From: a virus
Reading direction: 5' to 3' (one strand)
IMG/VR virus record: IMGVR_UViG_3300046680_000396
Coordinates: 1-46,506 of that record
DNA: 46,506 nt
This document shows, one piece after another, positions 1 through 46,506 of this stretch. Below the pieces are notes generated by a model. That model ran no database searches and was not told the DNA's origin. It saw only the letters and a list, made by a program, of their open reading frames with translations. Numbering within the stretch: the stretch's first letter is position 1; each line of letters begins with the position of its first letter. A program made the translations under genes and the position numbers.

Positions 1-372
1 GACGAGCCGAGCGAGCCACCGGACGAGGGACACGACCCGTGCAACGCCCACCTGTCGCCGATCACAGTAGGTCACAAGGTCTCAGCAACCCTCACGGTCG
101 GGCCGTGCGCCGACCAGCCCGAGGAGTACAGCGGGTCTTTGACGCTCCAGTACGGGACCGGCGAACTTCCCCACCTGAAGTGGACGACAGCGACTCTCAT
201 CCCGATCTACAGCGAGAACGCGACGCAACCGATCTCGGCTCCGTGCCAAGATGCGTACTGGGTGGTCGTGTACGACGCGGCCGGACGTGACGCCCACGGG
301 AAAGACTTCCAGAGCACTCACAGCGTCTTCCTCGAAGAGAACCAATTCCCACGGAAGGCGAACTGTCCATGA
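1..372 (+). CDS. C-terminal part of a putative lipoprotein (5' end outside window)
   Basis: Reading frame 1 is open from the first base to a TGA at 370-372, giving 123 residues without a start. It is a close but not identical copy of the complete lipoprotein at 45236-45784. The aligned part shares the acidic/proline linker, the DPCNAH segment, a run of beta-rich sequence and the ending PRKANCP. By analogy the missing N-terminus should carry a signal peptide and lipobox. The stop overlaps the start of the next gene (ATGA), so the pair is probably co-translated. Four or more cysteines are conserved between the copies, suggesting disulfides outside the membrane. Function is unknown; surface exclusion of other phages is an inference from location and type only. 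Confidence 0.7.
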   Translation, partial: DEPSEPPDEGHDPCNAHLSPITVGHKVSATLTVGPCADQPEEYSGSLTLQYGTGELPHLKWTTATLIPIYSENATQPISAPCQDAYWVVVYDAAGRDAHGKDFQSTHSVFLEENQFPRKANCP

Positions 373-785
373 GCGAAGAACCCGCCGCCCCCGTTGCGGC
401 GCTTGTGGGCGTCCCCGCCGGTACAGGTAGCGCCTTCATCCCCGACTACAAGTTCCCGGGGGCCACGCGCCTGCGCACGGCGGTCGGTTCAACTCTCCTG
501 TTCGCGCTCGTCAACCATCCCCGAGCCACTGACCCCGAAGTCCGAGAGCGGTACCAGCGCCACCGGCACGACTTCCAGGACACAGAGCTTGTGGTGAACG
601 GCGAGACCTATCCGGCGGTCGAAGTCCAAGACGCCGAGATCGGCATCCGCGTTCGCGCTGCGGCTGTGAACGGCCTCACTGTGGTCACCACGTTCCCGGT
701 TGATCAGAACGTCCCCGGCGTCCGCGTGACGTGGCCGGAGAGTGGCGACGCCGACCGGTCTCCTGACGCCGGCCAAGCGCTGTAA
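369..785 (+). CDS. Hypothetical protein, partner of the lipoprotein (copy A)
   Basis: 138 residues; ATG overlaps the stop of the lipoprotein gene by 4 nt. It has no signal peptide or membrane segment. The N-terminal third (ALVGVPAGTGSAFIPDYKFPG) and the middle (HDFQDTELVVNGETYPAVEV) are almost identical to the product of 45781-46170, while the last 20 residues differ. I do not recognise the family. The TAA stop lies inside a copy of the dispersed GCTTTAMAGC element (768-788). Always being paired with the lipoprotein in both cassettes suggests a shared function, perhaps a cytoplasmic partner, but nothing in the sequence shows what that is. Confidence 0.75.
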   Translation: MSEEPAAPVAALVGVPAGTGSAFIPDYKFPGATRLRTAVGSTLLFALVNHPRATDPEVRERYQRHRHDFQDTELVVNGETYPAVEVQDAEIGIRVRAAAVNGLTVVTTFPVDQNVPGVRVTWPESGDADRSPDAGQAL

Positions 786-788
786 AGC
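768..788 (-). repeat. Dispersed GCTTTAMAGC element, copy 1
   Basis: GCCGGC, 5 nt, GCTGTAAAGC. The core contains the stop codon of the 369-785 gene and ends 5 nt before the -35 of the small-RNA promoter. No CCGCGG arm. Confidence 0.85.
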
Positions 789-793
789 GCGCG

Positions 794-822
794 TGTGAGC
801 CGTACCCCACACGCGCTATGCT
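794..822 (+). promoter_or_regulatory. Promoter of candidate small RNA A
   Basis: TGTGAG (794-799), 17 nt, TATGCT (817-822). The same arrangement (TGTGGA, 17 nt, TATGCT) precedes the second copy at 46188-46216. The spacer is also nearly identical in both copies. The -35 is a weak match to the vegetative consensus. The dispersed element immediately upstream could be an operator. Confidence 0.5.
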
Positions 823-828
823 GATCCC

Positions 829-928
829 TGCTTCCTCGTTCAACGCTTTCCTTTCGAGGTGTGTTGTGACTTGCTGGCAATCGAGTTGAGGAAGCGCAGA
901 GCCCCCGCCCTAGTGGCGGGGGTTTTGC
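829..928 (+). ncRNA. Candidate trans-acting small RNA A (~100 nt)
   Basis: The interval runs from about 7 nt after the TATGCT -10 to the T tract of an intrinsic terminator. No frame is kept open in both copies, so it is probably not coding. The 5' end GCTTCCTC (830-837) can pair with GAGGAAGC (888-895). In copy B the corresponding arms are GCTTCCCC and GGGGAGC, a compensatory T-A to C-G change. The loop holds an 18-nt block, ACTTGCTGGCAATCGAGT (869-886), identical in both copies. Its part CTTGCTGGCA is the reverse complement of the TGCCAGCAAG tag in leaders at 7901, 8612 and 9574, and nearly so at 6685, 11570 (minus) and 1029. Antisense control of early mRNAs is inferred. Confidence 0.5.
902..926 (+). 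terminator. Intrinsic terminator of small RNA A
   Basis: CCCCCGCC (902-909), 5-nt loop, GGCGGGGG (915-922), then TTTT. Perfect 8-bp stem. Confidence 0.85.
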
Positions 929-964
929 TTTTCACCTGCGGGTTCGGAATTATCTATAACTCGC

Positions 965-994
965 TTGACGCAAGGTGGGTGGAGGTCTTATCGT
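965..994 (+). promoter_or_regulatory. TTGACG promoter before the small basic protein gene
   Basis: TTGACG (965-970), 18 nt, TATCGT (989-994). Same family as the other CTTGACGC promoters in the window and matched at 46359-46388. A perfect 8-bp hairpin (CCATGCCC/GGGCATGG, 999-1018) lies at the predicted 5' end of the transcript and may stabilise it. Confidence 0.6.
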
Positions 995-1036
995 TTTGCC
1001 ATGCCCGAGGGGGCATGGAAACGGACGGTTGCCAGC

Positions 1037-1141
1037 ATGTCTAAGTCGTTCAGCAAGGGCGAGCGTAAGACCTCCGGAAAGTCTGATCGGGAGTTCCGCC
1101 GGATGCGGAAGACGGCCCGGAAGGCGGAGGGGGAGAAGTGA
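1037..1141 (+). CDS. Small basic protein (34 aa)
   Basis: ATG at 1037; the product is rich in Lys, Arg and Glu, with SKGERKTSGKSDREFRRMRK at residues 6-25 approximately. The same start, leader and first 25 residues recur at the right edge of the window (46432 onward), supporting a real gene. There is no clear Shine-Dalgarno sequence. Instead TTGCCAGCA overlaps the start codon, and this is the segment complementary to the small RNA encoded just upstream. The stop overlaps the GTG of the next gene (GTGA). Function unknown; the charge suggests nucleic-acid or acidic-protein binding. Confidence 0.65.
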   Translation: MSKSFSKGERKTSGKSDREFRRMRKTARKAEGEK

Positions 1142-6218: not shown

Positions 6219-6647
6219 ACGGCGGTGCGCGTCGTGCGGCAGCTCGGTTACGCGAATGCCATTCGCGGCGGGGCGCCAGGTGTTCCCGGTGTGCCGTGGG
6301 AGACCGGTCGAAGCCGGGCTGACCGGCGCGACCGCGTCGGCTGTAGGCCGCTGGCCGCTGACCCTACTCAGCCAAAAAATTTTCGGCTTGGTCTCTCTCG
6401 TCGGCCCGTCCGCGCGCGGGCAACAAACTACCCCGTGTCACAGCCCGATATGGCTCGCCATGATCTGACCGGGAATGCGAGTCATTGTCATGGATATCCG
6501 TTTCAGGGCATAGGAGTGCCTATGTAAACCAGGGCTGAAAGTGATTTCGGGCGGCCCTTACAAAAGCGCTCTCGGGGCCTTCCGATACCGCATCCGACCA
6601 GCATTGCACTCCCATAACCGCAGGTCAAACCCTATTCCGTTCCTCCC

Positions 6648-6698
6648 TTGACACGCTTTAAAGCGTTCGTGCATCGTCTTGTCTCGCCAGCAAGACAC
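6648..6698 (+). promoter_or_regulatory. Early-type promoter and tagged leader, SprT gene
   Basis: TTGACA (6648-6653), then GCTTTAAAGC (6655-6664) in the spacer; the -10 is poor (CATCGT near 6672). CGCCAGCAAGACAC begins at 6685, near the predicted 5' end. Same architecture as 7867 and 9538. Confidence 0.6.
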
Positions 6699-6727
6699 TC
6701 CACCCGGCCCGAACGGAAGGAACGCAC

Positions 6728-7807
6728 ATGCCTAGCGCATACAAGACTCGTGAGGCTTGGTTGCACGCGGCTCGGAAGCTCATGATGAAGCGATTCGAGC
6801 GGGCCGGGGTCGAAGTGCCAACCGACGTGCATATCAGCGTCGGTTTCAAGCCTGGCGGCGGGCCGGAATCCGCAAAGGTCATGGGGTGCTGCTATGTGCG
6901 GCTCGCGTCCTCTGGCAACGTGAACGAGATTTTCGTCTCTCCCGAGTGGGATAATCCCGCTGACGTGCTGGAAACCCTCGCGCATGAACTGATTCACGCC
7001 GCATCGGACTGCCAGGACGGGCACGGCCCCGGTTTCAAGCGGGATGCTCTCGCGTTCGGGTTCCTGTCGCCGATGACGTCCACCCCTGCCAGTGATGAGC
7101 TGAAGTGCTTCCTTCGCCTGGTCGCGGCCACCGTGGGGCCGTTCCCTCACTCGGCTACACGCATCATGGCGCTCAAGCGCCGTCCGAAGAATGACCCCGT
7201 GAAGCCTGACGGGAACGCGTCGGCTGACGGCGGCGACGGCGGAAAGCAGCACTCCGGGCGCCCTAAGCAGAACACGGCGATGCTCAAGCTTGAGTGCATC
7301 AATCCGGGTTGCGGTTTCATCGCGCGTGCCACGGCGAAAAACCTTGACCTCGGTATGCCTATCTGCGCATGCGGTACGCCGCTCTCGTCTCCGCAGTACG
7401 CGGAAGTGCTGGCGGATCGTTGGTATGCGCCGCATCCGCATTACGGCGGCCCGCGCCCGGATTACTTGGTTGAGGCAGAGGTCAAGGCGATGGAACAGGG
7501 TTTGGAGAAGCGGCGCGAGTGGTCGCGGGCACGCGGTTTCCTTCCCGCGCTCGGCGCAGCCGTCGCCACTGCCGTTAAGACGGTCGCTAAGGGCGCCCCT
7601 AAGCGGCTCATTCCCGCGACCGTCGTTAAGGCTCTCGACAGTGCGCGTGAGGCTGCCGATTGGGTCGCGTGGATGCCGTACCCGTCCACCTTGGGCGACG
7701 CAGCGCGGTACCCGGAAGACGCGCTAGAGGTCTGGGAAACGGCGGAAGCCCTAGCGGAGCGGGTTTCTGCGTTGGATGACGCGCTAAGCGCTCTCCTGCC
7801 TGCCTAG
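6728..7807 (+). CDS. SprT-like zinc metalloprotease domain protein
   Basis: 359 residues from ATG 6728, ribosome site GGAAGGA. Residues 82-91 read ETLAHELIHA, the HExxH zinc-protease signature (His86, Glu87, His90). GHGPGF near residue 98 supplies the third ligand expected in SprT/Spartan-like proteins. A four-cysteine ribbon follows (CINPGC then CACG, about residues 184-220), then a helical C-terminal half that I cannot assign. SprT-like proteases act on DNA-bound or DNA-crosslinked proteins. In a phage early region it could clear host proteins from DNA; this is inference. It is the first gene of a + strand early block and ends at a strong terminator. Confidence 0.75.
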   Translation: MPSAYKTREAWLHAARKLMMKRFERAGVEVPTDVHISVGFKPGGGPESAKVMGCCYVRLASSGNVNEIFVSPEWDNPADVLETLAHELIHAASDCQDGHGPGFKRDALAFGFLSPMTSTPASDELKCFLRLVAATVGPFPHSATRIMALKRRPKNDPVKPDGNASADGGDGGKQHSGRPKQNTAMLKLECINPGCGFIARATAKNLDLGMPICACGTPLSSPQYAEVLADRWYAPHPHYGGPRPDYLVEAEVKAMEQGLEKRREWSRARGFLPALGAAVATAVKTVAKGAPKRLIPATVVKALDSAREAADWVAWMPYPSTLGDAARYPEDALEVWETAEALAERVSALDDALSALLPA

Positions 7808-7812
7808 CGGTT

Positions 7813-7846
7813 AGCGGGCTAAGACCAGGGTCTTAGCCCGCTTTCC
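7813..7846 (+). terminator. Intrinsic terminator after the SprT-like gene
   Basis: AGCGGGCTAAGAC, short loop, GTCTTAGCCCGCT, then TTCCC. Perfect 13-bp stem, weak T tract. Confidence 0.75.
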
Positions 7847-7866
7847 CTACCCCTAGTGTTACGCCC

Positions 7867-7914
7867 TTGACGCACGCTTTAAAGCGTGCCAAGCTTGGCC
7901 TGCCAGCAAGACAC
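7867..7914 (+). promoter_or_regulatory. Early-type promoter with palindromic operator and tagged leader
   Basis: TTGACG (7867-7872) followed by a perfect 18-bp palindrome with the GCTTTAAAGC core (7872-7889) filling the spacer; CAAGCT at 7890-7895 is a poor -10. TGCCAGCAAGACAC (7901-7914) starts at about +1. The palindrome position suggests repression by blocking polymerase. Confidence 0.65.
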
Positions 7915-7938
7915 AAGCACTAACCGGAAGGTAAGACG

Positions 7939-8553
7939 ATGAGCGTTTCGACCGGCACCTACTACCCGAACCGTCCGGGCGCGCGGACTCTCGCGGAAGC
8001 GCGGGCAATGTATATCGGTCACGAGCCGGTTTCCGGGCAGATGGCGCCGGATGGCACGGCTACCGTGTTCGTCGGCTGCCGCATTGCTTACAACGGTCCG
8101 GCGCCGGAAAGCGTCAACACCCCGGGCGAGTTTCACGACTGGATTGTGACCGTCGCCGAGACGTTCGCGAACGGGCCGGAAGAGGTTGAGGACAACGCGG
8201 ACGCGCTGACGGAAACCGAGATAGCGAACCTTAAGGGAACGCGCTACCTCGCCGCTTTCGTCGATGCGAACTACGGCATGCCGCAAGATGACCGCGCACA
8301 CGAATTGTTTCGCTCGATCGGCGAAGCCAAGGATGCGCTTTGGCGTCGGGCCGTTGACCGTGAATCCCGCGTGCGCTACGTGGATACGGCACTTGACGCG
8401 GACCTGTGGACGCGCTTCCCGAGTGTGACCGATGACGCCGAGATCATGCTTTACGCCTTCGACGTGGTGAACGGTGAGATTGTCCGCGAGGAATACCCGA
8501 CGCATCGCCTGTTCATGGGGCCGCGTGGTGGCATCAAGGTTGAGCGGCTTTAA
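7939..8553 (+). CDS. Hypothetical early protein
   Basis: 204 residues from ATG 7939, ribosome site GGAAGG. An acidic centre (ANGPEEVEDNADALTETEI) is followed by a helical part and a strand-rich end. No signal peptide or known motif. The TAA stop is inside a GCTTTAAAGC core (8547-8556), which lacks the GCCGGC arm. Likely early or takeover function from its promoter class; not recognised. Confidence 0.7.
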   Translation: MSVSTGTYYPNRPGARTLAEARAMYIGHEPVSGQMAPDGTATVFVGCRIAYNGPAPESVNTPGEFHDWIVTVAETFANGPEEVEDNADALTETEIANLKGTRYLAAFVDANYGMPQDDRAHELFRSIGEAKDALWRRAVDRESRVRYVDTALDADLWTRFPSVTDDAEIMLYAFDVVNGEIVREEYPTHRLFMGPRGGIKVERL

Positions 8554-8625
8554 AGCGCTGCCTTAGGCACAGCTCCCGCTGTGCTTAGGACAGTGCGGTA
8601 AACCCGCACGCTGCCAGCAAGTCAC
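8547..8625 (+). promoter_or_regulatory. Structured leader with small-RNA complementary tag
   Basis: After a GCTTTAAAGC core (8547-8556) come two hairpins: GCACAGC/GCTGTGC (8567-8584) and GTGCGG/CCGCAC (8593-8609). Then TGCCAGCAAGTCAC (8612-8625), a perfect 14-nt reverse complement of small RNA A (866-879). No TTGAC promoter is seen, so this may be an intra-operon leader. Confidence 0.55.
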
Positions 8626-8642
8626 CCCCGGAAGGATCAGCA

Positions 8643-9074
8643 ATGACCATCACTTTCGCCCGCGCGACGCGCGAGTATCACGCGCACATCAAGACGTGCG
8701 AATGCGGACAGCGTATGGAGCGGTGCGCGCGCGGCGAGCGGCTGCACACGGTCTATCGGACAGTCCTTGACGCGAACGCGGCCGGTGAGCACGCGGAAGC
8801 CGTGGCGGCCGGACGCGAGATCACGATAGGCAACAGCATTCCGGCGGCCTGGTTCCGGTCGCGCCTCAAGCGGTACGCGCTTCTGTCGGACACCTCGGCG
8901 AATGCCGCTGAAAACGTCCGGGAAGTCGCCGCCCGTGCGCAGGCTACGCCGTTCCGCATGGCCTGGTATGAGTTCGCGCACGTCTACGCCGCCGTTCACA
9001 AGGTTTGGAGCATGGAAACCGACCTTGACCGCGCGAACCGCGCAGCCGTCCTTAGCGCGCTGAAGGGGTTCTGA
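8643..9074 (+). CDS. Hypothetical early protein
   Basis: 143 residues from ATG 8643, with GGAAGGA 7 nt upstream. The N-terminus carries CECGQRMERC, a possible metal site with the nearby His residues. The rest is predominantly helical and basic. No assigned family. One nucleotide separates it from the next gene, so the two are co-translated. Confidence 0.7.
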   Translation: MTITFARATREYHAHIKTCECGQRMERCARGERLHTVYRTVLDANAAGEHAEAVAAGREITIGNSIPAAWFRSRLKRYALLSDTSANAAENVREVAARAQATPFRMAWYEFAHVYAAVHKVWSMETDLDRANRAAVLSALKGF

Positions 9075-9075
9075 C

Positions 9076-9474
9076 ATGAAGTCTTGGAACTACGACGCTC
9101 CGAAGATGGCGCTTGATGTCCGCGTGGACTATTTCGTCTCTCTGTTCGGGCCGGACGGTACCGAGATCTACGAAACTCGGCGCATCCACCCGGCGGAAAT
9201 CCGCTCACTGCGCGCGGACCGCGCGAACCTCGCGACAACCGGGTTCCGGACCAAAGCTGAGCGGCGCGTAACCACACGGTGGGTTGAAGCCTGCCACTAC
9301 TGCCAGGCTCGCCCATGCATAACCGAGTGGGACTGTGACGGCCCTTACATGCGCGTCATCTGTGATGACCCGCAGTGCAACCGGGGCGCCAATCTCGATA
9401 ACTCGGATTGGGTCGCGGGCAAGGGGCCGCTTTGGGGGCCGGAACATCCCGAGTGGCAGGCAACAGCGGCCTAA
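9076..9474 (+). CDS. Hypothetical early protein with cysteine motifs
   Basis: 132 residues from ATG 9076. The N-terminal part resembles a small beta domain (LDVRVDYFVSLFGPDGTEIY). The C-terminal part has CHYCQARPC, CDGPYMRVICDDPQC and could bind one or two zinc ions. Ends at a perfect terminator. Function unknown. Confidence 0.7.
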   Translation: MKSWNYDAPKMALDVRVDYFVSLFGPDGTEIYETRRIHPAEIRSLRADRANLATTGFRTKAERRVTTRWVEACHYCQARPCITEWDCDGPYMRVICDDPQCNRGANLDNSDWVAGKGPLWGPEHPEWQATAA

Positions 9475-9486
9475 GACGCGAACAGG

Positions 9487-9514
9487 GGGCTAGGGCATAC
9501 CGCCCTAGCCCTTT
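9487..9514 (+). terminator. Intrinsic terminator
   Basis: GGGCTAGGGC, 5-nt loop, GCCCTAGCCC, then TTTCGC. Confidence 0.85.
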
Positions 9515-9537
9515 CGCATGACCTGACTCTTACGCCC

Positions 9538-9587
9538 TTGACGCACGCTTTAAAGCCGTGGTTAGCTATCGACTGCCAGCAAGACAC
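9538..9587 (+). promoter_or_regulatory. Early-type promoter and tagged leader
   Basis: TTGACG (9538-9543), GCTTTAAAGC core (9547-9556) in the spacer, TTAGCT (9562-9567) as -10. TGCCAGCAAGACAC (9574-9587) begins at about +1. Same cassette as 7867. Confidence 0.7.
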
Positions 9588-9604
9588 ACCAGGGAAGGGA
9601 AGCT

Positions 9605-9973
9605 ATGAGCGAGTATCAAACCCGGTTCGGGTACATCTACGCGACGTTCACCACGCGCGGCCAAATGCCGCATGAGGCCGAGGTCACGGTTTGCATAGAC
9701 GACGCAACCAACCGCCCTCACACATGGGGCGCGTTCGCCGTGGCCATTGCTGATGAGTCACAGGAGGGTTTGAACGTGGCGCTTACGGCTGCCACGGACC
9801 ACATGACCCGTACCTACGGCGTGTGCGGCATGACGTGGGTTCCGCAGTGGGATGGTTCCTACCTCGGCTGCCAGTGGCACCCCGAAACGATGCGGCCGGT
9901 TAACGGTCGCATCCGCCCCGGCTCGTTTCACGTCGGCTCTGTCCGGCCGGAACACGGACGGCGGTCCCGCTAA
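9605..9973 (+). CDS. Hypothetical early protein
   Basis: 122 residues from ATG 9605, ribosome site GGGAAGGGAAG. Beta-rich N-terminus (QTRFGYIYATFTTRG) with no known domain. The stop overlaps the next ATG (TAATG), so its expression is coupled to the AT-hook membrane protein. Confidence 0.7.
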   Translation: MSEYQTRFGYIYATFTTRGQMPHEAEVTVCIDDATNRPHTWGAFAVAIADESQEGLNVALTAATDHMTRTYGVCGMTWVPQWDGSYLGCQWHPETMRPVNGRIRPGSFHVGSVRPEHGRRSR

Positions 9974-10185
9974 TGGCATGGGTCGCATTCTTCGCAGTGG
10001 TCGCACTCGGGTTCTACGCCACGCGGGCAAAGGTCAAGGACGCGGAACGGATCACCGCTCAAGAGCAGGCACGTGAGCAAGCGGCCAAGTACGCAGAAGC
10101 GCGAGCGCTGAAAGAAGCGGAAGAGATCAGGGCTCGTCAACCGGCGCCCCGCCGGGGGAGGCCACGTAAGACCACAACCCCATAG
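9973..10185 (+). CDS. Membrane-anchored AT-hook protein
   Basis: 70 residues from ATG 9973 (TAATG overlap). Residues 1-16 (MAWVAFFAVVALGFYA) form one membrane segment. Residues 20-57 are a charged helix rich in Ala, Glu, Lys and Arg, likely a coiled coil. The C-terminus RRGRPRKTTTP contains a textbook AT-hook (core RGRPRK) that inserts into the minor groove of AT-rich DNA. The layout suggests a tether between the membrane and AT-tract DNA, perhaps phage or host DNA at replication or takeover. No family known to me has this exact form. Confidence 0.7.
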   Translation: MAWVAFFAVVALGFYATRAKVKDAERITAQEQAREQAAKYAEARALKEAEEIRARQPAPRRGRPRKTTTP

Positions 10186-10198
10186 CGAGCAACAGAAA

Positions 10199-10223
10199 GG
10201 ACCCTCTCCGGAGGGTCCTTTTT
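10199..10223 (+). terminator. Intrinsic terminator
   Basis: GGACCCTC, 4-nt loop, GAGGGTCC, then TTTTT. Ends the + strand early block. Confidence 0.9.
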
Positions 10224-10313
10224 CGTGCCCTGAAACAGCCGCCTAGCCAAACGCCCGGAGAGCAATTCTAAGCCCCGGCCGGCCTGGGTTCGCTTGACCG
10301 GGTACCCAAGAGA

Positions 10314-10336
10314 CGAGAAAAGCCCCCCACGGGGCT
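10314..10336 (-). terminator. Minus-strand intrinsic terminator
   Basis: AGCCCC/GGGGCT stem with a 4-nt loop and TTTTCTC on the minus strand; ends the 11.6-10.4 kb minus operon, back to back with the preceding block. Confidence 0.8.
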
Positions 10337-10364
10337 GTGAGGGGTCTTCCTTGGGGTATTTCGT

Positions 10365-10619
10365 CTAGCGGCCCATGCCGCGAATGATGAAATGAGGCGT
10401 GGGGGTCGTAGCCTCAACGGCTACCGCAAGCGGGTCATGTCCGCCGGGCAGCCCTCGAATCAGGGTCAGGGCCTTTTCTATGGCCTCCGTGGTGGACTCG
10501 GCATCTACGTGATAGCCAGTAACCATCCGACCATCGGAGGACATCGACCACACCCCTTCGACGTTGTCCGTTGCCTCCGCCGGGAGATCCCAAACGACCG
10601 TTACCGCGTAGTCCGTCAT
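10365..10619 (-). CDS. Hypothetical small protein
   Basis: 84 residues from ATG 10619. Reads as a ferredoxin-like alpha/beta unit (TDYAVTVVWDLPAEATDNVE, then TTEAIEKALTLIRGLPGG). No catalytic motif. It is separated from the upstream gene by a terminator, so it may be expressed at lower level or need read-through. Confidence 0.65.
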   Translation of the reverse strand: MTDYAVTVVWDLPAEATDNVEGVWSMSSDGRMVTGYHVDAESTTEAIEKALTLIRGLPGGHDPLAVAVEATTPTPHFIIRGMGR

Positions 10620-10642
10620 GCCGCCATCCTGCCAGAAACACA

Positions 10643-10671
10643 GAAAGGACCACCCCGGTTAGGGGTGGTCC
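10643..10671 (-). terminator. Minus-strand intrinsic terminator within operon
   Basis: GGACCACCCC, 5-nt loop, GGGGTGGTCC, then TTTC on the minus strand. Confidence 0.8.
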
Positions 10672-10679
10672 TCACACGC

Positions 10680-10689
10680 GCTTTACAGC
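10680..10689. repeat. Solitary GCTTTACAGC core
   Basis: Core with short flanking symmetry (CGC/GCG) but no GCCGGC arm; between a stop codon and a terminator. Confidence 0.5.
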
Positions 10690-10693
10690 GCGT

Positions 10694-10972
10694 CTACAGC
10701 TCCGAGAAATCGACTCCGAACAGTGCTAGCCAGTGGGACAAGCGGAGCACGTCCCGGACGCTCTCCGGATACGGGAAGCGCATGCGCGCCCGAACGGCTT
10801 CCGGCGTGTCCTGCCACCTATCGACCGGAACCCAAACCAGCCGAACCCGAGTAGCGACCTGTCCCGCGTTCCTGCCAGGCACGTACTCAGTCGTCACCTT
10901 GAACCCCTGTAAAGCGGCTATCTCGCAGAGCCGGTCAACGGCGGCGGGAATCTCGACCAGCCCGCCACTCAT
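10694..10972 (-). CDS. Hypothetical small protein
   Basis: 92 residues from ATG 10972, overlapping the previous stop (ATGA). Helical N-terminus (VEIPAAVDRLCEIAALQGFK), then strands and a Trp-rich middle. No known family. A diverged core, CCTGTAAAGC, lies in the coding sequence at 10906-10915. Confidence 0.65.
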   Translation of the reverse strand: MSGGLVEIPAAVDRLCEIAALQGFKVTTEYVPGRNAGQVATRVRLVWVPVDRWQDTPEAVRARMRFPYPESVRDVLRLSHWLALFGVDFSEL

Positions 10973-11283
10973 CAGCAGACCACCCCGAACCGTTGAGCCT
11001 GCCGAACCTCGGCCGGTGAAAGCTCAATGTTCCCCACCACGCGACACCAGTAGGCACGGCCCGTAAGCCACCGGACAGGGTCCCGCAGGAACAGCCACAC
11101 GGCCCCGTAAGCGACCGGGACGGACGGGAAAGACCCCGGCAACAGGATGGTTCCCACCCGCGCCACCACAAAGCCGTTCCCGTCGGCTCCAAACGCGTTC
11201 ACCCGCGCTATCACCGAACCGTCCTCATACAGCTTGTGAACGCCCGGTTCCGTCTCACGCCACAAACGCGGAAGCGTGCTCAT
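10972..11283 (-). CDS. Hypothetical protein with one possible membrane segment
   Basis: 103 residues from ATG 11283; starts inside the previous stop (ATGA). A moderately hydrophobic segment near residues 45-68 (VGTILLPGSFPSVPVAYGAV) may be membrane-associated. No assigned family. Confidence 0.65.
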   Translation of the reverse strand: MSTLPRLWRETEPGVHKLYEDGSVIARVNAFGADGNGFVVARVGTILLPGSFPSVPVAYGAVWLFLRDPVRWLTGRAYWCRVVGNIELSPAEVRQAQRFGVVC

Positions 11284-11507
11284 GAGCAGTCGCCGCCCTT
11301 GAAACCGAACACGTTGCCGAAAAAGCCAGTCTCGCCCCTGGTCTCATACCCGATGCACTTACCGTGGCCGAGGTCAACGACCACACCCGCGTTACTGGGC
11401 TTCTGCCCATGCCACGTGCTGTAGCCGTACGTGAACCAGTGCCAGTGATGCACGTGGTGCGCATAGAGCACGTGCAAGAGAACCGACAGCGCGTGAAACC
11501 AAGACAT
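11280..11507 (-). CDS. Hypothetical small protein with His-rich N-terminus
   Basis: 75 residues from ATG 11507. The first 25 residues hold a hydrophobic stretch and a histidine cluster (LLHVLYAHHVHHWHWF). The rest is glycine-rich with two cysteines. Metal binding at or near the membrane is possible. First gene of the minus operon behind the promoter at 11577-11606. Confidence 0.6.
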   Translation of the reverse strand: MSWFHALSVLLHVLYAHHVHHWHWFTYGYSTWHGQKPSNAGVVVDLGHGKCIGYETRGETGFFGNVFGFKGGDCS

Positions 11508-11560
11508 GTGCTGTGCCTTCCGTGTGTGTTGTCCGGCGCCCCCTGGTCGGGGCGGCCGGT

Positions 11561-11606
11561 GTTGCTGGCAGGCACATGTCTAGGGCCAGCCGTAGCCACG
11601 CGTCAA
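11561..11606 (-). promoter_or_regulatory. Minus-strand CTTGACGC promoter with tagged leader
   Basis: On the minus strand: TTGACG (complement of 11601-11606), 18 nt, TAGACA (complement of 11577-11582). TGCCAGCAAC starts at 11570, about +1, one base short of the full tag. Drives the 11507-10365 operon. Confidence 0.65.
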
Positions 11607-11607
11607 G

Positions 11608-12345
11608 GGCGTAACACCCGCCATCCCATGAGACGCACATCACACACAACAGGTAGACCAATCCAACCGGCCACCCCAGGCCGGCATAGACATAACGCCA
11701 GGTCAGACAGCCCATAAAGGCCGGGGGGTCAACTAGACCACACCCCTACAGCCGTCGCCAGAAACGGCCAACAGGCAGCCGGACCAGGTAAAACGATAGC
11801 TAATGTCCCAATCGCCCTACCTTGCCCAACCCCAGAATGTCCTATTCAGTCCGGTTATCCACCGTATTGAAAGGTACTAACCCATAGGGGGTGTCAAAAG
11901 TGCATATGTATAGGTGTTCAAGACCTGCACAGCTTTATTTTTTTCTCCGCAGGTTGAACGGCCTTTGGTGGAATGGCACACCAGAAAGGCCCTCCCTGGT
12001 GAGGAGGGCCGTTTTCGCGACTCTCCGGCCCTGGGAGGGCCTTGAGCTCGATGTTTGCACGGCGTGAGGCCGTGCGTCAAGGGGGGATCAGTACGTGACG
12101 CAAGTCACACGGGTGTAGTTGTCACGGCTTCGGCCGCGTGACCCCTGTTTATTAAGTGAGGGGGTAAGGGGGAGGAGCGAAGCGACGACCCCGCAACCCC
12201 CGAACGACGAGACCTCATAGTCTTAGGCCCCTCCGGGGGCCTTATGACAGTGGTTAGTACTAAGAGCGCCCTCAGGCGCTCTATAGATAGAAGGTGGTTA
12301 GCCTTTCACGGCTGATACTAACCTCCGGCCGTTAGGGGTTTCGTC
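11608..12345. other. ~740-bp gap before HNH/terminase: candidate cos region
   Basis: No credible gene. It is less GC-rich around 11800-11960 and packed with small hairpins at 12120-12325, including TTAGTACTAA (12254-12263) and AGAGCGCC/GGCGCTCT (12263-12282). GGTACTAACC (11873-11882) and GGTTAGTAC (12252-12260) are inverted relative to each other. Position just upstream of HNH and TerS is where cos lies in many cos-type siphophages; the cut site cannot be placed. Confidence 0.4.
11988..12015 (+). terminator. Intrinsic terminator in the non-coding gap
   Basis: GGCCCTCC, 7-nt loop, GGAGGGCC, then GTTTT on the + strand. No gene precedes it, so it may end an untranslated RNA or stop read-through. 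Confidence 0.6.
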
Positions 12346-13090: not shown

Positions 13091-13120
13091 CCGCGGAGCG
13101 CTTTAAAGCTTCCGGCCGGC
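13091..13120 (+). repeat. Dispersed GCTTTAMAGC element, copy 8 (three-part)
   Basis: CCGCGG, 3 nt, GCTTTAAAGC, 5 nt, GCCGGC, 4 nt after the terS stop. Cleanest copy in the window. Confidence 0.95.
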
Positions 13121-13208
13121 GCGGGGGGCTGGCCGGGGGACTGCGGTTGAGGCCAGGGGTTGAGTTTCGGCTCCCCCTGGTCTCCCGCTACATGAGAGGA
13201 GGATGCAG

Positions 13209-13658
13209 GTGCATCGCTACGTTGCGACGCGTACGCCACGGGTTCCGAGGGTGCACGGCGTTCACCGTGTGGCCCGTGTTGGTCGTGTCCGGCCGCCTCG
13301 GCAGGCTCATCACCCGCATTCGCCCGGCTCGGTTGTCCACCGGCATCCGCACCAGGGCAACCACAACCCGCGCCCCGGCGCGCATGTTCATCACCACGTT
13401 GCCAAGGGCGGGCACCACCCGCACGGCGGCGTACATGAACACCACCACGTCACAGCTGGACAGCACCATCACCACGCGGGCGTGCACGAACATCACAACG
13501 TGAAGCACGGGGGCACGCACCACCACAAGGGCGTGCATGAGCATCACCACGTGGCGAAGGGCCATCACCACCACCACAAGGGAAATCACGGCCATAGGCG
13601 CCATCACCACGTGCACAGGCGACACGGTTACCACCATCGCCGACGCCATCACGGCTAG
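13209..13658 (+). CDS. Extremely histidine-rich protein
   Basis: 149 residues from GTG 13209, with AGGAGG 6 nt upstream; ATG 13203 abuts the ribosome site. About 52 residues are histidine. After a basic N-terminus (residues 1-33) there are four imperfect repeats of about 16 residues built on GVHEHHHVAKG and runs of 3-5 His. It ends in a His/Arg tail. No membrane or signal segment. Such composition would bind Zn, Ni or Cu ions, or become strongly charged at low pH. The gene sits between terS and a fibre-like gene and is bounded on both sides by full dispersed elements, as if it were a mobile cassette. Codon positions favour this strand over the mirror frame. Confidence 0.6.
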   Translation: MHRYVATRTPRVPRVHGVHRVARVGRVRPPRQAHHPHSPGSVVHRHPHQGNHNPRPGAHVHHHVAKGGHHPHGGVHEHHHVTAGQHHHHAGVHEHHNVKHGGTHHHKGVHEHHHVAKGHHHHHKGNHGHRRHHHVHRRHGYHHRRRHHG

Positions 13659-46170: not shown

Positions 46171-46182
46171 GCGCTGTAAAGC
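46162..46182 (-). repeat. Dispersed GCTTTAMAGC element, copy 28
   Basis: GCCGGC, 5 nt, GCTGTAAAGC. It overlaps the stop of the 45781 gene and ends 5 nt before the small-RNA B -35, as copy 1 does for small RNA A. Confidence 0.85.
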
Positions 46183-46187
46183 GCGCG

Positions 46188-46216
46188 TGTGGACCGTACC
46201 CCGCACGCGCTATGCT
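46188..46216 (+). promoter_or_regulatory. Promoter of candidate small RNA B
   Basis: TGTGGA (46188-46193), 17 nt, TATGCT (46211-46216); same layout as 794-822. Confidence 0.5.
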
Positions 46217-46222
46217 GGTGCT

Positions 46223-46320
46223 GCTTCCCCGCACCACCCTTTCCTTTCGGAAGTGTTGGAACTTGCTGGCAATCGAGTATGGGGAGCCAGAACCCTCGCC
46301 CTTTTGGGCGGGGGTTTTCT
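46223..46320 (+). ncRNA. Candidate trans-acting small RNA B
   Basis: Second copy of the RNA at 829-928, diverged outside the 18-nt block (46261-46278), which is identical. Closing stem GCTTCCCC/GGGGAGC, terminator stem CCCTCGCCC/GGGCGGGGG (46293-46314) with TTTT. Conservation of the antisense block amid change elsewhere supports selection on it, though the copies are related by duplication. Confidence 0.5.
46293..46318 (+). terminator. Intrinsic terminator of small RNA B
   Basis: CCCTCGCCC, TTTT loop, GGGCGGGGG, then TTTT; one G-T pair. Confidence 0.85.
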
Positions 46321-46388: not shown

Positions 46389-46431
46389 TTTCCCATGCCC
46401 GAGAGGGCTACGGAAACGGAAGGTTGCCAGC

Positions 46432-46506
46432 ATGTCTAAGACGTACAGCAAGGGCGAGCGCAAAACCTCCGGTAAGTCTGATCGGGAGTTCCGCCGGATG
46501 CGGAAG
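46432..46506 (+). CDS. Small basic protein, second copy (3' end outside window)
   Basis: First 25 residues, nearly identical to the 1037-1141 product with TY for SF at residues 4-5. The start codon is again overlapped by TTGCCAGCA, the segment complementary to the small RNA. Truncated by the window edge. Confidence 0.65.
   Translation, partial: MSKTYSKGERKTSGKSDREFRRMRK

Follow-up and report, generated by a model that had tools for sequence, protein, structure and literature searches.

Candidate small RNA locus and the ends of the record

The stretch of DNA analysed here (the window) comprises virus record IMGVR_UViG_3300046680_000396, 46.5 kb long, which carries genes for a terminase, a serine integrase, an SprT-like protein, a DnaB-like protein and a lysin; a 151-codon open reading frame at 13203-13658 is extremely His-rich. 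Near each end of the window, on the plus strand, lies a locus for a candidate small RNA: copy B, the phage's own, at 46222..46318, and copy A at 829..928. Alignment and folding with four other sequences divided copy B into a closing stem, a variable hairpin 1, a hairpin 2 that would carry the seed, and a terminator.

A preliminary description of the window had reported a promoter, about 100 nt without a conserved frame and a strong terminator at both places, and the sequence signs of these elements were recovered. A putative -10 box, TATGCT (copy B 46211..46216; copy A 817-822), lies in a block, ACGCGCTATGCTG, that is invariant in five sequences, while the -35 region is weak. A strong, GC-rich intrinsic terminator is present in all five (copy B 46289..46318; copy A about 896-928). 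The operator-like GCTGTAAAGC is situated at approximately -50 of the small RNA promoter (copy B 46173..46182; copy A 779-788). Across the five relatives the aligned locus is 110-124 nt long with indels that are not in threes, which argues against a conserved reading frame. The 18-nt block ACTTGCTGGCAATCGAGT is identical in both copies, as had been described, and forms the seed hairpin at 869-886 and 46261-46278; in copy A the hairpin was assigned by the block match and the hairpin alignment.

The two loci had been taken for two copies of the RNA in one phage, and this part of the description did not hold. Positions 1-1134 of the window match the 89.9-kb contig G004 (from 32995) with 0 mismatches, copy A being identical to the locus of its strain a, and divergence is complete from 1142. 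The last 31 nt of the window (46476-46506) are identical to 1081-1111. In two other relatives (G001 and G003), what corresponds to the right end of the window joins directly to what corresponds to the region from ~1.1 kb on, and a single RNA locus lies at the junction; G004 itself resembles two strain genomes joined one after the other, each ~45 kb having one such locus. We conclude that each genome has one locus and that window 1-1141 is sequence of a second strain, the record wrapping past its own start into that strain. The wrap-around would be due either to an assembly chimera or to tandem related prophages.

The nearest relatives, G001-G005, are soil-metagenome contigs with mostly 75-90% DNA identity, and the phage collection searched held no close isolate. 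The host of the phage is probably, not certainly, a Streptomyces-like actinobacterium, because, among named genomes, a Streptomyces antimicrobicus contig comes closest, its terminase being 63% identical. Searches with the locus returned nothing at gathering score in Rfam (only weak matches to unrelated families) and no nucleotide homologue in phage and plasmid records; the 138-aa protein encoded upstream of the locus had no match in phage records. Neither this protein nor a covariance model of the RNA was found in 394 Streptomyces genomes, a set that contained no positive control and thus shows little. Pattern matches in L003, L004 and L007 (a common 17-mer) and in L147-L149 (a common 18-mer) were discarded, as their contexts were unrelated. 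Three relatives of ~39-40 kb (G034, G038 and G039; terminases 63-66% identical) showed neither the RNA nor the leader tag described below.

Fold of the RNA and its conservation

We aligned five distinct sequences (copy A, copy B, G001, G003 and G005/G004b) from the invariant ACGCGCTATGCTG to the terminator. They have a common fold, in which a closing stem, GCTTCCYC/GRGGAAGC, is accompanied by the variable hairpin 1, by hairpin 2 with the sequence ACTTG[CTGGCAAT]CGAGT and by the GC-rich terminator. A T-A pair of the closing stem is exchanged for C-G between sequences; this is the compensatory change noted earlier between the two copies, with CTTCCTC/GAGGAAG in copy A and CTTCCCC/GGGGA-G in copy B, where one A is lost.

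The loop of the seed hairpin, CUGGCAA(U/C), is constant in the five sequences but for a T to C change at its last position. In G001, two pairs of the stem beneath it are replaced on both sides (GTTTTG/CGAAAC). Over the whole seed hairpin alignment 94.6% of cells pair, compared with 34-66% when the partner strand is slid. Fold z-scores were -4.0 for copy A, -2.7 for copy B and -5.3 for G001; copy B and the G005 sequence, folded alone, have competing folds. These data support the view that the locus specifies a conserved structured RNA with an exposed seed in a constant loop.

Tags in early leaders and their complementarity to the seed

The seed loop has a nine-letter antisense counterpart, the tag GCCAGCAAG, elsewhere in the window. 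The block CTTGCTGGCA occurs exactly on the plus strand at 870 and 46262, and its reverse complement occurs exactly at 7901, 8612 and 9574 and with one mismatch at 6685 and at 11561-11570, so that all the sites listed in the preliminary description, including the near-exact one on the minus strand, were found again. In total, 11 sites with at most one mismatch were observed against 3.1 expected, and 0 of 100 shuffles reached 11.

Four of these tags lie in one register to a promoter-like TTGAC. Tag CGCCAGCAAG (6685..6694, plus strand) is 38 nt from the TTGAC at 6648 and would mark the approximate +1 position of the transcript of the SprT-like gene (6728-7807). Tag TGCCAGCAAG is present twice on the plus strand, at 7901..7910 and 9574..9583, which are 35 nt and 37 nt from TTGAC and would be close to +1 of the mRNAs of genes 7939-8553 and 9605-9973. 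On the minus strand, TGCCAGCAAC (11561..11570; GCCAGCAAG in relatives) is 37 nt from TTGAC and is the putative +1 region of the leftward gene 11507-11280. Measured from the first T of TTGAC, the tag core GCCAGCA is 35-38 nt downstream at the tagged promoters of both the window and G001-G004, and it is the commonest 7-mer 34-39 nt downstream of TTGAC (19 counts, compared with 6 for the next unrelated 7-mers). Hexamers resembling a -10 box (TAGACA, TTAGCT, TTAACT and TTTACT) are found ~7 nt upstream of the tag. From this spacing and the fixed distance to TTGAC, we infer that several early mRNAs start at about the G of GCCAGCA. A generic sigma-70 scan of 6500-11800 found no promoter; the -10 boxes of the phage are too degenerate for such a scan, and the -10 and start-site assignments therefore rest on spacing and alignment. 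Except at the gene downstream of the RNA (see below), the tags are 30-62 nt upstream of the start codon.

The fifth tag (8612..8621, plus strand), before gene 8643-9074, is located mid-operon without a recognisable promoter, behind a hairpin, and the same arrangement is seen in G001, G019, L154 and L155. This hairpin (window 8590-8610) reads GTGCGGTAAACCCGCAC here and GTGTGCCAGAGCACAC in these relatives. It is kept as a position and may be a processing site. Another leader hairpin, formed around the tag (CTTG...CAAG), was discarded since its 5' arm would be upstream of the inferred start site.

A further complement of the seed, GGUUGCCAGCAUG, covers the start codon of the MSK gene, a 34-aa gene just 3' of the RNA locus. 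The corresponding sequence GGTTGCCAGCATG (46422..46434, plus strand; ATG 46432-46434) is present in every strain and lies at 1027-1039 in the second strain, whose MSK gene is at 1037-1141. The terminator separates the small RNA from MSK, which has a promoter-like TTGACG of its own. All other predicted targets are 7-35 kb from the RNA locus.

The chance of a 9-nt anti-tag in a given 18-nt block is about 4×10−5. When duplex energy with the seed was calculated for 106 start regions, the leaders of genes 7939, 9605, 6728 and 8643 took ranks 2, 3, 6 and 7, rank 1 being the antisense to the small RNA itself. Compared with shuffled seeds, the duplexes at 7939, 9605 and MSK were significant (0.002-0.004; MSK 0.002), those at 6728 and 8643 were marginal (0.05-0.08), and that at 11507 was not significant (0.25). 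The perfect 14-nt match reported at 8612-8625 exists for copy A; within one phage it does not, since copy B, the phage's own, matches 11 nt. We discarded the 14-nt match as an argument because it joins the RNA of one strain with a leader of the other.

In G001, the seed has changed to GTTTTGCTGGCA and two of the five tags have changed to GCCAGCAAAAC. The two changed tags match their own RNA over 12 and 11 contiguous nt, compared with 9 and 8 nt for the other RNAs. The remaining three of the five tags did not follow the seed, and the p value of about 0.04 refers to sequences that are not independent. Complementarity beyond 9-10 nt is not maintained.

A second group of phages (G019, G027 and L154-L156), with an SprT protein about 50% identical, has the same tag core GCCAGCA in the same register, and the base following the core varies. 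Their operator-like site, AGCTGTACAGCT, differs and occupies the same promoter position. No anti-tag hairpin with a terminator was found in this group, whose records are incomplete (G019 has 39.9 kb of about 45 kb). As these phages have tags, the tag may work without the RNA and may have a role independent of it, the RNA perhaps having been acquired later. For L155-like phages, a loop antisense to GCCAGCA is predicted to read CGUGCUGGC or CAUGCUGGC.

A proposed trans-acting antisense RNA and its alternatives

The reading that we cautiously favour, and hold to be somewhat probable, is that the locus encodes a trans-acting phage antisense RNA which pairs with early mRNAs at their very 5' ends. 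From its own promoter and terminator, the locus would yield one phage RNA of ~95 nt, whose seed hairpin would present UUGCUGGCAA(U/C). Its predicted partners in trans are GCCAGCAAG, which would make up the first ~9 nt of several early mRNAs, and GGUUGCCAGCAUG, which spans the start codon of MSK next to the RNA locus. MSK would then be repressed directly, its start codon being covered. At the other leaders, a 5'-end duplex 30-62 nt before the start codon might hinder ribosome loading or expose the mRNA to RNases. The preliminary description had predicted one RNA controlling several early operons in trans. The conserved structured RNA, the tags at 5' ends in one orientation, the mid-operon tag and the concerted change of the seed and two tags in G001 speak for that prediction, which we regard as partly supported. 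More tentatively, and with somewhat less than even confidence, we suggest that the tags act as an RNA 'password': an identical ~9-nt sequence at +1 of the early mRNAs would be read, together with one start codon, by a single cognate RNA, which would place the phage's own messages, or those of a superinfecting relative, under joint post-transcriptional control.

As to the sign of the effect, we infer that repression is about twice as probable as protection, because the MSK site covers a start codon and because the RNA adjoins an operator-like site of a type that tagged promoters also contain. Under protection, the same RNA would pair with the mRNA 5' ends and shield them from 5'-end-dependent RNases, activating or timing the early genes. 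It is known that RoxS of B. subtilis and FasX act in this manner, pairing with an mRNA 5' end and protecting it from such RNases (PMC5419742), and at all targets but MSK the tag occupies the very 5' end of the mRNA, ahead of the ribosome footprint. The pairing over the MSK start codon does not fit this scheme, which we regard as rather unlikely overall. A further alternative dispenses with pairing: GCCAGCA at +1 could be a DNA element or an initially transcribed sequence, involved in promoter escape or serving as an operator, and its antisense in the RNA a coincidence or the relic of an inverted leader. The fixed register to TTGAC, which extends to the second group, whose records yielded no small RNA, is consistent with such an element, as is the leader at 9574, whose similarity to the seed region, when the leader is read backwards, continues past the tag (CTTGCTGGCA[G/A]TCGA). 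An element of this kind would not account for tags mid-operon and at a start codon without a promoter, nor for the compensatory changes and constant loop of the seed hairpin or the concerted change of seed and tags in G001. The tag core was in antisense orientation in 0 of 105 cases in promoter register in the RNA-bearing group and in 1 of 30 in the second group, so that a DNA site working alike in both orientations, the counter-explanation named in the preliminary description, is not favoured. Altogether, we consider a DNA-level or initially transcribed element improbable.

Two further explanations leave the tags to another reader or to none. If the tag were an RNA-level element of the 5' leader, affecting translation or stability and read by a protein, the small RNA would be a decoy or have another target; tags where no small RNA was found agree with this, but a decoy should hold the tag in sense, whereas the small RNA holds the antisense, and we think this explanation very improbable. 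Hardly any weight falls on 16S rRNA as the target of the small RNA. Streptomyces 16S rRNA contains a 9-nt complement, and the MSK start region (1027-1039, 46422-46434) shares the 12 nt GTTGCCAGCATG with it, possibly by chance. Exact 16S matches of at least 8 nt were obtained with 31-49% of random 14-21-mers and are thus not above chance, and targeting of 16S rRNA would leave the tags unexplained.

Among phage antisense RNAs, c4 has one target, in its own transcript. The antisense RNA proposed here differs in that it would act on several separate operons, is divided from MSK by a terminator and has no Rfam match. In common with c4 of P1/P7 and sar/sas of P22, it is a phage antisense RNA with complementary loops that would act on phage mRNA (cited in PMC12697685; PMC12197685). 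It resembles RoxS and FasX in its predicted pairing with the first mRNA nucleotides, the tag being 35-38 nt from TTGAC, and differs in being phage-encoded, in having several mRNAs with one tag at +1 and in presenting its seed in a hairpin loop rather than in a C-rich region. Abundant non-coding RNAs of the Cluster A mycobacteriophages L5 and D29 are likewise actinophage non-coding RNAs near a genome end; they come from a region of about 500 nt transcribed from an early lytic promoter, with no antisense tag reported (PMC5712189).

The tags are also similar to the SAS of Cluster K mycobacteriophages and Microbacterium Cluster EF phages, short motifs in one orientation before many non-structural genes (PMC3203893, PMC7302621). 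There SAS occupies the ribosome-binding site, 3-7 bp ahead of the start codon (PMC3203893, PMC7302621), whereas the tags, except at MSK, lie 30-62 nt upstream and at ~+1 of the mRNA, outside the SAS position. Whether SAS is read by RNA or protein has been left open (PMC3203893; PMC11373665, PMC12699233). In Cluster K1, a single reverse-oriented SAS copy is located exactly in the loop of a strong hairpin, which is conserved, intergenic and near the right genome end (48660-48720 in Adephagia, L161; also L162 and L163), and this hairpin locus occurs in 177 Mycobacterium phage records. In Amgine, Hammy and Unicorn (Cluster K), the loop is C/T-rich and not complementary to SAS, though SAS is constant. 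As the loop is not kept complementary in these three phages, we did not use an extension of tag reading to SAS phages as support.

If the antisense reading is true, it would provide a concrete RNA reader with a defined seed for tag-type motifs before non-structural actinophage genes, and a natural means of acting on mRNA fate through the 5' end in actinobacteria. It would also mean post-transcriptional, regulon-wide control in a temperate phage that has dispersed operator-like sites as well. The palindrome GCTTTAAAGC is found between the -35 and -10 regions of three tagged promoters (6655, 7876 and 9547). In the window as a whole, palindromes of the type GCT[TG]TA[AC]AGC, to which the site near the small RNA promoter belongs, number 23 (779 to 46182), compared with 0.13 expected by composition. 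Many are at gene ends, further examples being those at 13100, 24579 and 43078, and in their dispersed arrangement they appear stoperator-like.
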